From: Flavobacterium sp. CF136 | Lineage (GTDB): Bacteria > Bacteroidota > Bacteroidia > Flavobacteriales > Flavobacteriaceae | Length of the DNA: 64,000 nucleotides | Reading direction: 5' to 3' | Assembly (NCBI RefSeq): GCF_000282055.1 | Contig: NZ_AKJZ01000020.1 | Span: 1-64,000, forward strand | Shown here: in pieces, positions 5,973-62,222 of the stretch | Layout of the letters: each line of letters starts with the position of its first letter | Numbering within the stretch: the first letter of the stretch is position 1 | Program-made: the position numbers and the translations under genes | The notes under the pieces: model-generated | What the model was told of the DNA's origin: nothing | Database searches by the model: none | What the model saw: only the letters and a program-made list of their open reading frames with translations

Positions 5973-7061
5973 TTACAGTAATTTGGGTTGATAATTTTGG
6001 ATTAAATCCAAAAAAACAACTTCAGTTCCGGATAAATATTTCTGATTGCTGCGGCATTTTTTAACCTTATCAAAATAGGTTTCAATAGTTCCGTCTTCAT
6101 AGGTCGAAACCAGCAAAGGATGCACATAGTAATTTCGGCAGACCGTTCTGGTATTTCCTAAAGCTTCTGCTGTAGCATCAAATGCAGTTAAAATATTTTT
6201 TTTTATTTCTTTTTCTTCTTCAGCAATTCCTAATTCTATCAATGTTTCAAAAAAAATCAAAGATGCATTCCATGTCCTGAAATCTTTGGCACTAAAATAC
6301 TCTCCTGATATTTCATGAAGATAAACATTAACCATATGGCTGTCCAGAATTTTTCTTTCCCCATTTTCATCATAATACTTAAAAACTTCCCAGCCCGGAA
6401 TTTCTTCACAGCGGCTTACTAACTTTACAAGTTGTTTGTTTCTTGTTGTAATAGTATGCTTTTTTCCTTTTTTTCCTATGAATTCAAAACGAAGCGAATT
6501 TTTATTGATATTGATATGTCTTTTTCGCAAAGTCGAAAGTCCGTAGGATTTATTGTCTTTGGCATACTTCTCATTCCCGATCCTGATATGGGTTTCTTCC
6601 ATTAATCGAATGACTAAAGCGATCACTTTATTTTTTGTCCACTCTCTTTGTTCCAAATCAGCATCAACTTTTTTACGAATTTGAGGCAGTTTTTTACCAA
6701 ACTCGGTAATTTTATAAAACTTGGTCTGGTTCCTGATTAAATTCCATTTAGGATGATATCGGTATTGTTTCCTTTTTTTCTCATCAAAGCCTACAGCCTG
6801 AAGATGGCCATTAGACAATTCAGAAATCCTGACATTCTCCCAGGCCGGCGGAAGTACCAGGCTACTAAAGCGTTTTAATTCGCTTTTTTGTTTTATACAT
6901 TTTCCGCTTTTTCGATAGATAAATCCTTCACCTTCCTTACATCTTTCAATAGGCATTTCTTTATCACTTACATAAACCAGATCTAATTTTTCTATTGCGG
7001 ACTGAGGTGATTGAATCAGCAATTTCATTAATTTTTCCTGAGTAACTTTTGATGACTTCAT
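5973..7061 (-). CDS. DNA topoisomerase IB (poxvirus/eukaryote type)
   Basis: The 362-residue product matches bacterial type IB topoisomerases, which relax positive and negative supercoils through a 3'-phosphotyrosine. Visible family features are the N-terminal beta domain (GEGFIYRKSGKCI, RFSSLVLPPAWENVRIS), the RYHPKWN motif and the catalytic-domain motif LIRLMEETHIRIGNEKYAK-like segment (about 148-168). The C-terminal GNTRTVCRNYYVHP is also present. The nucleophile is most likely the Tyr just before VHP (Tyr312). Length is normal for the family. The small Rho-N-like gene 60 bases upstream is on the same strand and may be co-transcribed. Confidence 0.93.
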   Translation of the reverse strand: MKSSKVTQEKLMKLLIQSPQSAIEKLDLVYVSDKEMPIERCKEGEGFIYRKSGKCIKQKSELKRFSSLVLPPAWENVRISELSNGHLQAVGFDEKKRKQYRYHPKWNLIRNQTKFYKITEFGKKLPQIRKKVDADLEQREWTKNKVIALVIRLMEETHIRIGNEKYAKDNKSYGLSTLRKRHININKNSLRFEFIGKKGKKHTITTRNKQLVKLVSRCEEIPGWEVFKYYDENGERKILDSHMVNVYLHEISGEYFSAKDFRTWNASLIFFETLIELGIAEEEKEIKKNILTAFDATAEALGNTRTVCRNYYVHPLLVSTYEDGTIETYFDKVKKCRSNQKYLSGTEVVFLDLIQNYQPKLL

Positions 7062-7121
7062 ACTCTTTTCATGATTGATAAAAAACTTCCTTTGTCACAA
7101 CAGTTTCTTTTTGATTGAAAT

Positions 7122-7361
7122 CTAATTATTTCTTAAGGCTTCTATAATTTTCTGTTTACTCATCTTTGATCTGCCTTTAATACCCACATTTTTAGCCTGT
7201 TTATATAATTCTTCCTTTGTCCATTCCTCATATTTTTTTGCTTTTCCGCCTTTACTTCCTGAATCGGGTGTATTGGCAATACGGGCTGACTTTTGCTTGC
7301 TGTATCCTTTGTCTAACAATGCCTTATATTTATCTTCATCTTTAATTCTTGAACTTGGCAT
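7122..7361 (-). CDS. Small Rho-N-domain (DUF7218-like) protein
   Basis: This basic 79-residue protein has an N-terminal DEDKYKALLDKGYSKQKSARIAN and a Gly/Lys hinge (SGSKGGKAKKYE). Its C-terminal SAP/Rho-N-like helix-extended-helix (TKEELYKQAKNVGIKGRSKM..IIEALRNN) is a fold that usually binds nucleic acid. Such proteins are common beside DNA-repair or topology genes in Bacteroidetes and Proteobacteria. Its position just upstream of topoisomerase IB suggests, without proof, a nucleoid or DNA-topology role. Confidence 0.8.
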   Translation of the reverse strand: MPSSRIKDEDKYKALLDKGYSKQKSARIANTPDSGSKGGKAKKYEEWTKEELYKQAKNVGIKGRSKMSKQKIIEALRNN

Positions 7362-59097: not shown

Positions 59098-59270
59098 ATT
59101 GAAGAGTTATTTTGGTAATATTTAATGGACATTCTCAGTTAATCTATGCGATGTGTATAGTTAGCTATAAAATTTACATAGTATTAGGCTAAAAACTAAT
59201 AAAATTGAGCTTTGAAAGAAAAAATAAAACTACTTCAAAACGAAAAGCTAACCATTAATAAAAAATCCAT

Positions 59271-59303
59271 TTGATTATTTGTAAGAATAAAACAATATAT
59301 TTG
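59271..59303 (+). promoter_or_regulatory. Promoter TTG-N22-TATATTTG
   Basis: TTG at 59271-59273 and TATATTTG at 59296-59303 with 22 bases between. It lies outside the putative cassette and would transcribe into it through the stem at 59315-59379. Confidence 0.55.
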
Positions 59304-59314
59304 AAAATAAATAT

Positions 59315-59395
59315 TATGTGATACGAATCACACATATCTGCCCTCATTTGGATGGCTTTGTGTGATTTTGTGACACATATAAACAAGTTAGCGGC
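59315..59395 (+). other. Left attC/attI-like stem with GTTAGCGGC core
   Basis: An imperfect inverted repeat, TATGTGATACGAATCACACA (59315-59334) with 59359-59379 (TGTGTGATTTTGTGACACAT..), is followed by AAACAA and GTTAGCGGC (59387-59395). A possible inverse core GCTAAC is at 59247-59252. GTTAGCGGC is the exact reverse complement of GCCGCTAAC at 62091, as expected for the two ends of one cassette. Confidence 0.5.
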
Positions 59396-59433
59396 AACTG
59401 TACACGAATCGTATAAAAATCGACAAATAAATA

Positions 59434-62085
59434 ATGAAAGCAGAAATAAAAGTAGTACTGGAAGAAAACGCTTCAAATAAATCAAAAGGTAATTGCTTTG
59501 AAGATTTAGTTAGAAATTTATTGTCGATTAATCAATATGAAATTAAGCAAAATATCAATTTTGCTGGATTAGAAATAGATTTGGTTGCAGAACATAAACA
59601 TAATAGAGAAAAATTATATGTAGAATGTAAAGCAAAAGAAAAAGTTACATCAGATGAGCTTTCAAAATTTGCCTTTAATGTGTTTCATAAAAAAATTGAT
59701 AAAGGTTATTTCTTTAGATCTCAAGAATTACAAAGTCAAGCTGGTGCTTTGCTAATTGAAATGAGAGAAGATGAAAGATATAAAAATCTAACTTTTTTTG
59801 AGCCAAAAGATATTATCAAAATGTTATCTGATGGAAAATTAATATTTGAACCTTTAGATAAACTAACCAGTTATACTATTTCAAAAAAGATTTTAGCAGT
59901 CACTTTTTTGGGTGATTATTTTATTTACTTAATAAATGAATCAAATGCTTTACCTACAAAGTATATTTTGATAAATGCTAAAAAAAATAGTGAAAAAATT
60001 GAAAAGGAAGTTATTACATTACTTCAATCAAGAATCAATGAAATATCGAATTTAGAATTAATAACTCGCATTGAAAATTACACAAAGAAAGAGGAAAATT
60101 TAAACCATAATATTCCAATTGAGACAATATCTGAAGTTCAAGAAAGTGAAAACTGGTTCGATTACAAACCTGCTTCTTCGATAAAAAATCATTTTGTTGG
60201 ACGAGATGAAATCAGAACAAACATATTACAATACTTCAAAGAAATTAGGGAAAATAAAACAAATAAAAGAATTTTTTATCTTAACGGAAAGTCCGGATGG
60301 GGTAAAAGTTCTTTAGTTTTAGAACTAAAAGGTAGATGTACAAACAAGCATTTTAAAAATAATTTTTTTGCATTAGCAATTGACACAAGGAGTGCTAATT
60401 CTGAAAATTTTGTTGCACTTTCTTTTAAAAAATTAATAACCCAAGCAATAGAAAATAAATTTATTAATTTAGATTTATTTCATAACAATATTGAATTTAC
60501 TTCAATCGTAGATTTACTTTCATCAGAAAGTGTTATTGCAATTTTGAAAAAATTAAAATTAGAAAATAAATTTCTAGTTTTAATTTTTGACCAGTTTGAA
60601 GATGTTTTTAGAAAAAAAGATTTTTTTAAAACTTTTTATAAATTCCTTTCAGATGTAACAGATGGTAAACCAAATTTAATAATTGGCTTTTCTTGGAAAT
60701 CAGATTTCTTTTTACAAAGCGACGATTCATCTTATCATATTTGGCAACAAGCCAAAGACCAAGCAAGAGAATTTACTATAACTGAATTTGGTGAAAAAGA
60801 AATAGATGGAATAATTAAGCAATTAGAAGAATCTGTTGGACATTTAAATAAATCAATTAAAGATAGAATAAAAGAAAGTTCACAAGGTTTACCTTGGTTA
60901 ACTAAAAAACTGTGTATCCATATTTTCGACCAAATTCAACAAGGAACTGCAAAAAATGATTTGTTAGAATCAAATTTAAACATTCTAGACCTTTTCAAAA
61001 AAGATGAAGAAAGATTAGATGCAAACGAATTAAAAGCAATAAAATTAATAGCAAAAAGAGCTTTTGATGGTAATTTTTTTGACGAGACCGAGGTTGGTGA
61101 ATTAATTGATAATAAAACTATTGGGGACTTAATTAATAAAAGATTAATTATACGTTCTGGAGCGAATTATAATATTTATTGGGACATTTATAGAGATTAT
61201 TTAGTAACAGGTAATATTCCTGTTATTGGAGAAAGTTATTTGTTAAGGCAAGGTGTAAATTTATGTTTTGAGGTTTTCCAATTACTGGAGCAAAATAAAC
61301 CTGAATCTTTAGAAGATATTTTACAAAAACATCCAAAAGGAATTACACAAGAAACATTGTACAATATTCTTATAGAATTAAAAAATCTTGGTTTAATACA
61401 AAAGGTTGATGAAAAATATATCGTTAATCAAGATGTTATAGCTAACAAAAAAGGTTTCATAGAATATATTACAACCAAATTTCAAAATTACACACCTTAT
61501 TTAGTATTAAATAAATTAAAAACCAATAAGATAAATAAAATAGATGTAATACAAATGCTTAAAGCAAACTTTAAGCAAGACTTTCAAGAAAACACTTGGG
61601 ATTCTTATGCAAAGCATCTAATTAGCTGGTTTTTATTTTCGAATTTGGATATCAAATCTAGATTAATTGAACCAACAAAAGGAAGAGGAAATAGTATTAA
61701 ATTAACGATACAAAGTAAAGAAACTTTATTACCTAGAAGTTCTGTAAAAGAATTAATTGCAATAATTCCATTATTAAACGATTTAGCAACTATAAATAGA
61801 AAATACAATAGAGATTTATTGATTTTTGACATTATTGATAATGAAAAGAAGTTAACACAATTTGGGCAAGAATTATGTTCAGTAGAAAGTAAATTATATT
61901 ATGATTTATTAAAAGAGAAAATATTAGTCTTACCAAAAATGATAACACTAAATTCACTCATCATCAAGAACCCTAAATTTAAAGCAAAAGAATTAATTAA
62001 AGCATTGCCAGATAATTTTTTTGATGGAGCAAAAGAAAGTTCAAAAATCATTTATGCTTCCAAAGTAATGACTTGGCTAAAATAA
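59434..62085 (+). CDS. Nuclease-STAND NTPase, likely antiphage protein
   Basis: The product has 883 residues. An N-terminal PD-(D/E)xK/Mrr-like nuclease occupies about 15-130, with E23 in NCFEDLVRNLL, D49 in GLEIDLVAE and E64-x-K66 in LYVECKAK. A STAND-type NTPase occupies about 250-560, with the entry motif VGRDEI (255-260), Walker A GKSGWGKSS (285-293) and Walker B LVLIFDQFED (D386, E389). A C-terminal winged-helix-rich part of about 270 residues follows. The layout recalls Avs-type antiviral STAND proteins, which cut DNA after sensing phage proteins. This one is shorter and has no TPR-like C-terminus. It is markedly AT-rich and sits in a cassette-like unit between hemN and the cco genes. 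Confidence 0.85.
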   Translation: MKAEIKVVLEENASNKSKGNCFEDLVRNLLSINQYEIKQNINFAGLEIDLVAEHKHNREKLYVECKAKEKVTSDELSKFAFNVFHKKIDKGYFFRSQELQSQAGALLIEMREDERYKNLTFFEPKDIIKMLSDGKLIFEPLDKLTSYTISKKILAVTFLGDYFIYLINESNALPTKYILINAKKNSEKIEKEVITLLQSRINEISNLELITRIENYTKKEENLNHNIPIETISEVQESENWFDYKPASSIKNHFVGRDEIRTNILQYFKEIRENKTNKRIFYLNGKSGWGKSSLVLELKGRCTNKHFKNNFFALAIDTRSANSENFVALSFKKLITQAIENKFINLDLFHNNIEFTSIVDLLSSESVIAILKKLKLENKFLVLIFDQFEDVFRKKDFFKTFYKFLSDVTDGKPNLIIGFSWKSDFFLQSDDSSYHIWQQAKDQAREFTITEFGEKEIDGIIKQLEESVGHLNKSIKDRIKESSQGLPWLTKKLCIHIFDQIQQGTAKNDLLESNLNILDLFKKDEERLDANELKAIKLIAKRAFDGNFFDETEVGELIDNKTIGDLINKRLIIRSGANYNIYWDIYRDYLVTGNIPVIGESYLLRQGVNLCFEVFQLLEQNKPESLEDILQKHPKGITQETLYNILIELKNLGLIQKVDEKYIVNQDVIANKKGFIEYITTKFQNYTPYLVLNKLKTNKINKIDVIQMLKANFKQDFQENTWDSYAKHLISWFLFSNLDIKSRLIEPTKGRGNSIKLTIQSKETLLPRSSVKELIAIIPLLNDLATINRKYNRDLLIFDIIDNEKKLTQFGQELCSVESKLYYDLLKEKILVLPKMITLNSLIIKNPKFKAKELIKALPDNFFDGAKESSKIIYASKVMTWLK

Positions 62086-62090
62086 CAGCA

Positions 62091-62222
62091 GCCGCTAACA
62101 GCTTGGCAAGATTGGGGTTTTAGGCTTAATTTAAAGATGGTTTTGTGTTTGTAAAATTTGTGTTTAACCGAAAAATCTCGCTTCTTTAATCCCCAACCTC
62201 GCCAAGCGCCGGAACGTTAAAA
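62091..62222 (+). other. attC-like recombination site after the NTPase gene
   Basis: GCCGCTAAC (62091-62099) begins six bases after the stop. It is followed by GCTTGGCAAGATTGGGG (62101-62117), a 73-base spacer, the imperfect complement CCCCAACCTCGCCAAGC (62191-62207; 15 of 17 pairs) and GGAACGTTAAAA with the GTT cut site at 62216-62218. In a circular cassette the end AACG would join TTAGCGGC (59388) and restore GTTAGCGGC, the partner of GCCGCTAAC. This is the architecture of an integron attC, although the boxes are not textbook. Confidence 0.6.

Follow-up and report, generated by a model that had tools for sequence, protein, structure and literature searches.

A probable chromosomal integron of Bacteroidota type, without its integrase gene, in Flavobacterium sp. 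CF136

In an integron, the first bases of each gene cassette derive from that cassette's own attC and cores differ among cassettes, so that a 5′ core must complement the inverse core of its own cassette; the R core of a classical attC is about 7 bp long. In the accessible portions of the published accounts, strand choice at classical attC sites is set by extrahelical bases and efficiency by an unpaired spacer (PMC2727003), and the integration of CTX phage through XerCD uses a folded single-strand site described as having no extrahelical bases (PMC4792948). The 'Integron-like' subgroup of tyrosine recombinases (PMC8138268) is among the closest known systems. IntegronFinder 2.0 reported complete integrons in Chlorobi, Ignavibacteriae and Salinibacter within the group (PMC9024848), and Bacteroidota stand on a review's list of integron-bearing phyla (PMC8618304). 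The term 'flavobacteri' does not occur in the accessible text of PMC9024848, PMC8618304 or PMC9668308, and searches of the openly accessible literature (subscription papers and preprints aside) gave no paper whose title or opening abstract lines describe Flavobacterium integrons with an integrase of the kind reported here.

Here we describe a locus of Flavobacterium sp. CF136, contained in a 64,000-nt stretch of DNA that was analysed as a whole (the window), which an earlier note had read as a defence gene moving as a lone integron-like cassette, inserted between hemN and cco-type genes. We conclude, with a probability of roughly 0.9, that it represents a chromosomal integron, Bacteroidota-type in its lineage, whose integrase gene has been deleted and which has kept its attI, a single captured cassette and, probably, a promoter.

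The cassette, its attI and an integrase relic

Table 1. Features of the locus, in window coordinates
Feature	Position	Strand	Description
Decayed integrase 3′ end	59240..59284	+	15 codons, TKS*PLIKNPFDYL*, against a final TKSLQQIKSPFDDL* in intact relatives
TATATTTG, likely -7 box of cassette promoter Pc	59296..59303	+	between relic and attI, at the usual spacing
attI	59307..59387	+	boxes 59328-59343, 59350-59365 (inverted) and 59371-59387; end AAACAAG|TT
Gene cassette TT...G	59388..62216	+	one gene; 5′ core complementary to its own inverse core
Gene for 883-aa protein	59434..62085	+	Mrr-type nuclease domain (18-107), nSTAND1/AAA_16 NTPase (251-469)
attC	62085..62219	+	R'' 62085-62099; L arms 62101-62117 and 62191-62207; G|TT at 62216/62217

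The cassette limits drawn in the earlier note, its core and inverse core, and the attC abutting the stop codon were all recovered on reading the sequence, every coordinate proving exact (Table 1). The core GTTAGCGGC (59387-59395) has its sole occurrence at 59387 and is complementary to the inverse core GCCGCTAAC, its exact reverse complement, which lies at 62091-62099, six bases past the TAA that closes the gene; the right boundary reads AACG|TTA, the G being the last base of the cassette. Across the 15 nt of the two cassette ends, pairing is Watson–Crick at positions 1-9 and 12-15, with A·A at 10 and A·C at 11. The L arms of the attC pair at 15 of 17 positions, and both mismatches, the second of them at position 11, are A·C on the top strand, that is, G·T on the bottom. 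Folding of the bottom strand, which the earlier note had proposed, is the more favourable (-20.2 kcal/mol, z -2.75, against -14.3, z -0.23, for the top), and extrahelical bases are absent from the fold; among 79 aligned attC a bulged T is present in a minority (not exactly counted). The single Rfam match, to a miRNA, was dismissed as a chance match.

Immediately left of the cassette lies an attI, which a PWM trained on nine attI of other genomes scores at 49.7 bits at 59387, the second-best position in the 64-kb window reaching 5.9 (leave-one-out recovers 8/9 of the training sites, locus L041 failing). Further left is the decayed 3′ end of an integrase gene: in a blastn comparison of 59098-59400, a stretch of 156 nt matches the integrase 3′ end and attI of L040 at 70.5% (E 4e-15). 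In 12 of 15 intact platforms, nine of which supplied the PWM, the core of the first cassette lies 92-204 nt past the stop codon of the integrase gene; in L039 and L044 it was located 623 and 815 nt away, and in L046 as no more than a 7-mer. The attI boxes of a given site vary in concert (for example TCACAC, TCATAC, AGCG) at 59328-59387 of the window and in L032-L051, and the middle, inverted box thereby stays complementary to both of the others. Two more attI-sited cassettes occur in the same genome, at L016:10478 (36.6 bits) and L018:4863 (45.8 bits).

Going by the consensus TAnnTTTG, which we take to be that of Bacteroidota -7 boxes, TATATTTG is likely the box of the cassette promoter Pc. 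The motif stands 10-15 nt past the integrase stop in ten of 15 intact platforms and 41 nt past a premature stop in one, and is absent in four; all three integrase-less attI of the CF136 genome carry it, at -89 to -91 from the cut.

With attI and the relic on the left flank, what lies here is an entire platform, minus its integrase, and the cassette sits in the normal first position; of the earlier integron reading, the cassette thus stands, and the lone insertion between hemN and cco-type genes has to be corrected. The same two features lead us to reject a chance insertion between hemN and TauE/SafE. Among relatives, compared as species representatives, none of 29 loci has an attC and none an attI score above 3.2 bits; in the 19 relatives showing both genes the hemN–TauE/SafE gap measures 3-1133 nt, and the intergenic sequences do not align. 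This site-free locus in relatives, together with the single cassette and a genome without integrase, would suit a lone cassette inserted at a non-classical, attG-like chromosomal site by an integrase acting in trans, but the full attI, promoter box and integrase 3′ relic at their usual spacing argue strongly against such an event, and we consider it very unlikely.

Homologues of the 883-aa gene occur in three other genomes (60, 60 and 66% identity, the last truncated by a contig end). The homologous gene begins directly after an attC in G219 and follows an attI (40.4 bits) and an attC remnant in G348, with cores GTTGGTGGC/GCCACCAAC; at the third homologue, in G213, neither attC nor attI was found. 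The left flanks of the window, G219 and G348 differ, and the sequences are alike from the core onward (TTAGCGGCAACTGTA, TTGGTGGCAACTGTA, TTGGTGGCAATTGTA); a cut at G|TT is supported because homologous cassettes in two genomes start at the same base behind different left flanks. An empty attI is predicted to read AACAAG followed by TTAAAATTTAAAAG.

The earlier note had called the cassette gene antiphage-like. Avs-like defence systems are STAND NTPases with a nuclease effector, and the window protein shares with them an Mrr-type nuclease and an nSTAND NTPase domain (Pfam Mrr_cat, 7.1e-9; nSTAND1, 3.4e-8), but matches no described defence family beyond a weak CARF-PDDEXK hit, the only one returned by PADLOC (E 0.0016); a PDB search found no relative at E 0.01. 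Judged on its domains, the gene is a probable candidate for anti-phage defence. As to cassette cargo in general, few of 91 cassette ORFs match anything, the 35 Pfam families found have mostly one member among those listed, and at most eight of the 91 match PADLOC. On contig C19 of CF136, the product of the attI-first cassette at L018:4863-6342 belongs to the AbiH family (Pfam E 4.9e-26), and this cassette is followed at 6603-7157 by a Y1 transposase-family gene.

Cassette cores and attC across the genus and phylum

The window hairpin has seven further DNA relatives in its own genome (E 6e-40 to 8e-4), in arrays on contigs C22 and C27 and also on C19 and C93. The covariance-model search suggested by the earlier note, run with a model built from 12 sites (R1), finds at least 23 sites in Flavobacterium sp. 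CF136 (23 candidates scored) and, of 150 genus genomes sampled, has matches in 116; a second model, R2, was built from 79 sites, and per-genome counts with either are lower bounds, 23 or 11 candidates having been scored. The window attC, which belonged to both training sets, scores 128 bits with R1 and 113 bits with R2. Sites and genes alternate in the arrays, gene-site-gene-site, which is the plan of integron cassettes, and between the R1 matches and the complementarity of cores the expectation that other genes of the genus would be flanked by the same core and stem holds for many genes.

That complementarity is general. Among 130 consecutive attC pairs (drawn from 159 sites in 24 loci, 19 of which have pairs), 98 match at all five variable core bases, whereas 2000 partner shuffles average 3.5 such matches and never exceed 11; in a second set (92 sites, 28 loci), 42 of 57 pairs match against a shuffled maximum of 9, including the one matching cassette of a Flavobacterium locus with a pair. 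In 91 of 96 cassettes the longest ORF points the same way as the site, ten further cassettes having no ORF of 60 aa. These results bear on whether the hairpins might not be recombination sites at all but terminators, dispersed repeats or elements of REP type mobilized by a RAYT/Y1 transposase, a reading to which their position after genes and the Y1 transposase-family gene adjoining the C19 site lend some colour. Variable cores match inside cassettes, however, and not between them, and arrays begin at an attI beside an integrase; we regard this explanation as extremely improbable, and terminators or REP elements as such were rejected because the core rule contradicts them.

The two helices of the site share a feature. 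Once a cassette is excised, its outer helix (R) spans 15 positions. Of 106 cassettes, which were selected for matching cores (pairs 10-15 lying outside that selection), 86 have A·C at pair 11 when read on the top strand, equivalent to T·G on the bottom, as do 37 of 47 in the second set. In the inner helix L, 14 of 15 pairs show compensatory change across 79 diverse sites, and one position is G·T on the bottom strand (A·C on the top) in 78 of the 79, falling at the 11th pair if numbered outward from the centre, a placing of our own; another alignment gives G·U in 31 of 37, a count that leans towards R2 because the alignment was fitted to it.

In a phylum sample of 296 genomes, 141 have R2 sites, as do 80 of 139 genera. 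Of 70 named loci R2 matched 18, whose record titles all name Bacteroidota; 53 of their 55 sites lie downstream of the integrase and co-directional with it, 13 of the 55 having been in R2 training; the matched loci include Flavobacterium aciduliphilum, Algibacter onchidii, Seonamhaeicola aphaedonensis, Zunongwangia mangrovi, Algoriphagus ornithinivorans and Aquiflexum. In the genus sample, the platform integrase (scored as present at E below 1e-80, a limit chosen after the gap was visible) is present in 82 of 150 genomes, and 45 have sites without it. The association between the two is loose (Fisher p 0.013): 64 genomes have the integrase and at least two attC, 18 the integrase and fewer, 40 at least two attC only, and 28 neither.

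Some plasmids carry such sites as well. Chryseobacterium plasmid NZ_CP041688 has the platform integrase, named 'site-specific tyrosine recombinase/integron integrase' in its record, and five sites; two of four plasmid loci (L186, L188) have no site at E 0.01 or better, and on a second Chryseobacterium plasmid, from Chryseobacterium oryzae, the platform integrase is present with no site found within 12 kb. Inside the NZ_CP041688 array, at L185:18765-20081, lie the reverse transcriptase gene of a group II intron and an IS110 transposase. The mobilizable plasmid NZ_CP092416 of Flagellimonas marinaquae has a dihydrofolate-reductase-family gene (L187:5913-6748) between two R2 sites and close to erm(F). 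At L186:13969-15911 of the C. oryzae plasmid, a tyrosine recombinase beside IS91 transposases adjoins the platform integrase.

The platform integrase

In other Flavobacterium genomes the intact platform runs from integrase to attI to a co-directional cassette array. Twenty integrase loci were chosen, 15 of them with at least two attC, four with one and one with none; in 17 of the 19 loci having sites, the attC lie downstream of the integrase and co-directional with it, and in L037 and L047 they lie upstream in the divergent, classical integron layout. Attributes of L129 and L135 are similar, attC-like sites upstream of the integrase pointing away from it. As the earlier note had held for the locus, and as tblastn and a profile search extend to the genome, no integrase of the platform class was found in CF136: the three tblastn matches, of 312, 299 and 383 aa, share 33, 29 and 27% identity, and the first two are XerD/XerC-like. 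Internal stop codons interrupt several platform integrase frames (G026, G035, G043, G045, G106 and others), suggesting, from the reading frames, that the integrase has decayed repeatedly in the genus.

The integrase is not of the IntI kind. No protein of CF136 or of 150 genus genomes exceeds the TIGR02249 cut-off of 265 bits; full-protein scores are 182-217 bits for the platform integrases scanned and 445-495 for five IntI. Tyrosine recombinases of ~350 aa (some of 590-610 aa) match the model in two pieces, skipping approximately positions 180-238, a stretch that contains the IntI-specific additional domain (I2). Conserved patches lie 70-71 residues apart in platform integrases and 112 apart in IntI, and alignment to 2A3V leaves a gap in the platform integrase at the IntI-specific domain. 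The XerA model NF040815 (cut-off 220) passes two of four platform integrases (224.5 and 221.8 bits) and fails two (211 and 194), and the predicted structure (mean pLDDT 80.5) aligns best to XerA (Z 23.8), with archaeal Xer, IntI and XerH tied next at Z about 20. In a tree whose deep branches are unresolved, the IntI sequences form one supported clade (100/99) separate from the platform integrases, and the Bacteroidota integrases do not form a single clade. The 590-610-aa form, with an N-terminal extension of ~250 residues, was seen in L021, L026-L029, L031, L035 and L036, with arrays downstream in L035 and L036. A ~320-aa tyrosine recombinase occurs five times within 20 kb of the G139 array (L043) and also at L039:6943-7917; this recombinase and the one beside the IS91 transposases of the C. 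oryzae plasmid possibly mark an element that targets these arrays.

Could the locus instead be the remnant of a classical IntI integron, a CALIN with unusual attC moved by IntI? The layout, the G|TT core and the AAACAAG|TT end of attI do resemble those of classical integrons, and IntI above the cut-off was found in two of 24 phylum genomes hand-picked among the 141 with these attC. But the other 22 genomes, like all 150 of the genus, have none, the relic in the window matches an integrase unlike IntI, and R2 matches none of 12 loci with IntI-clade integrases (five confirmed as IntI by score, the others by tree), loci not shown to hold arrays. We judge this origin to be highly improbable; a standard IntI CALIN was rejected on the TIGR02249 scores, the R2 result at IntI-clade loci and the 22 genomes.

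Under the preferred reading, a chromosomal integron with its integrase gene deleted, a Xer-like tyrosine recombinase, encoded directly upstream of attI in intact relatives, would bind the folded bottom strand of attC, whose two ~15-bp arms, each with a fixed G·T wobble, may imitate a double-stranded core site; strand exchange with attI at G|TT would then place the cassette behind Pc. The window cassette would be fixed unless an integrase acts in trans, since none of the platform class was found in the genome. Against the integron reading we count the position of the integrase below the IntI cut-off and its want of the IntI domain, the G213 homologue without sites, 11 of 82 integrase-positive genus genomes without an R1 match, the siteless C. 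oryzae plasmid and the divergent L037 and L047.

Comparison with known systems

Taken beyond this locus, the data make it somewhat better than an even chance that Bacteroidota harbour a phylum-wide integron lineage with a Xer-like recombinase lacking the IntI domain and a folded single-stranded attC, in which paired G·T wobbles, at corresponding points in the two helices, take over the role of extrahelical bases in strand choice. If so, it would represent a living intermediate between Xer recombination and classical integrons, or an independent origin, and IntI-based searches would have missed a large stock of defence and other accessory genes. Surveys built on IntI and classical attC would overlook a platform with sites in nearly half of the phylum genomes sampled, one that is also found on a Chryseobacterium plasmid and has some defence-like cargo. 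The IntI-specific domain is the part thought to define integron recombinases; a cassette system without it and, at the window site, without extrahelical bases would make its supposed role testable.

The locus and its relatives share with IntI integrons the integrase, attI, tandem one-gene cassettes with attC, complementary cores and G|TT, as well as bottom-strand folding and the existence of integrase-less arrays (CALIN). Unlike that of IntI integrons, the Bacteroidota integrase lacks the IntI-specific domain, stays under the TIGR02249 cut-off and is mostly co-directional with its array. The Bacteroidota variant falls outside the IntI type, yet shows structural signs of working in an integron-like way. 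Its site has an R helix of 15 bp, compared with an R core of about 7 bp in classical attC, and a G·T wobble appears to replace the extrahelical bases of classical sites (PMC2727003). In fold and profile the platform integrase is closest to Xer (XerA, NF040815); unlike the Xer/CTX system, as far as the available text of PMC4792948 describes it, the Bacteroidota platform has a dedicated integrase gene beside attI and cassette arrays.
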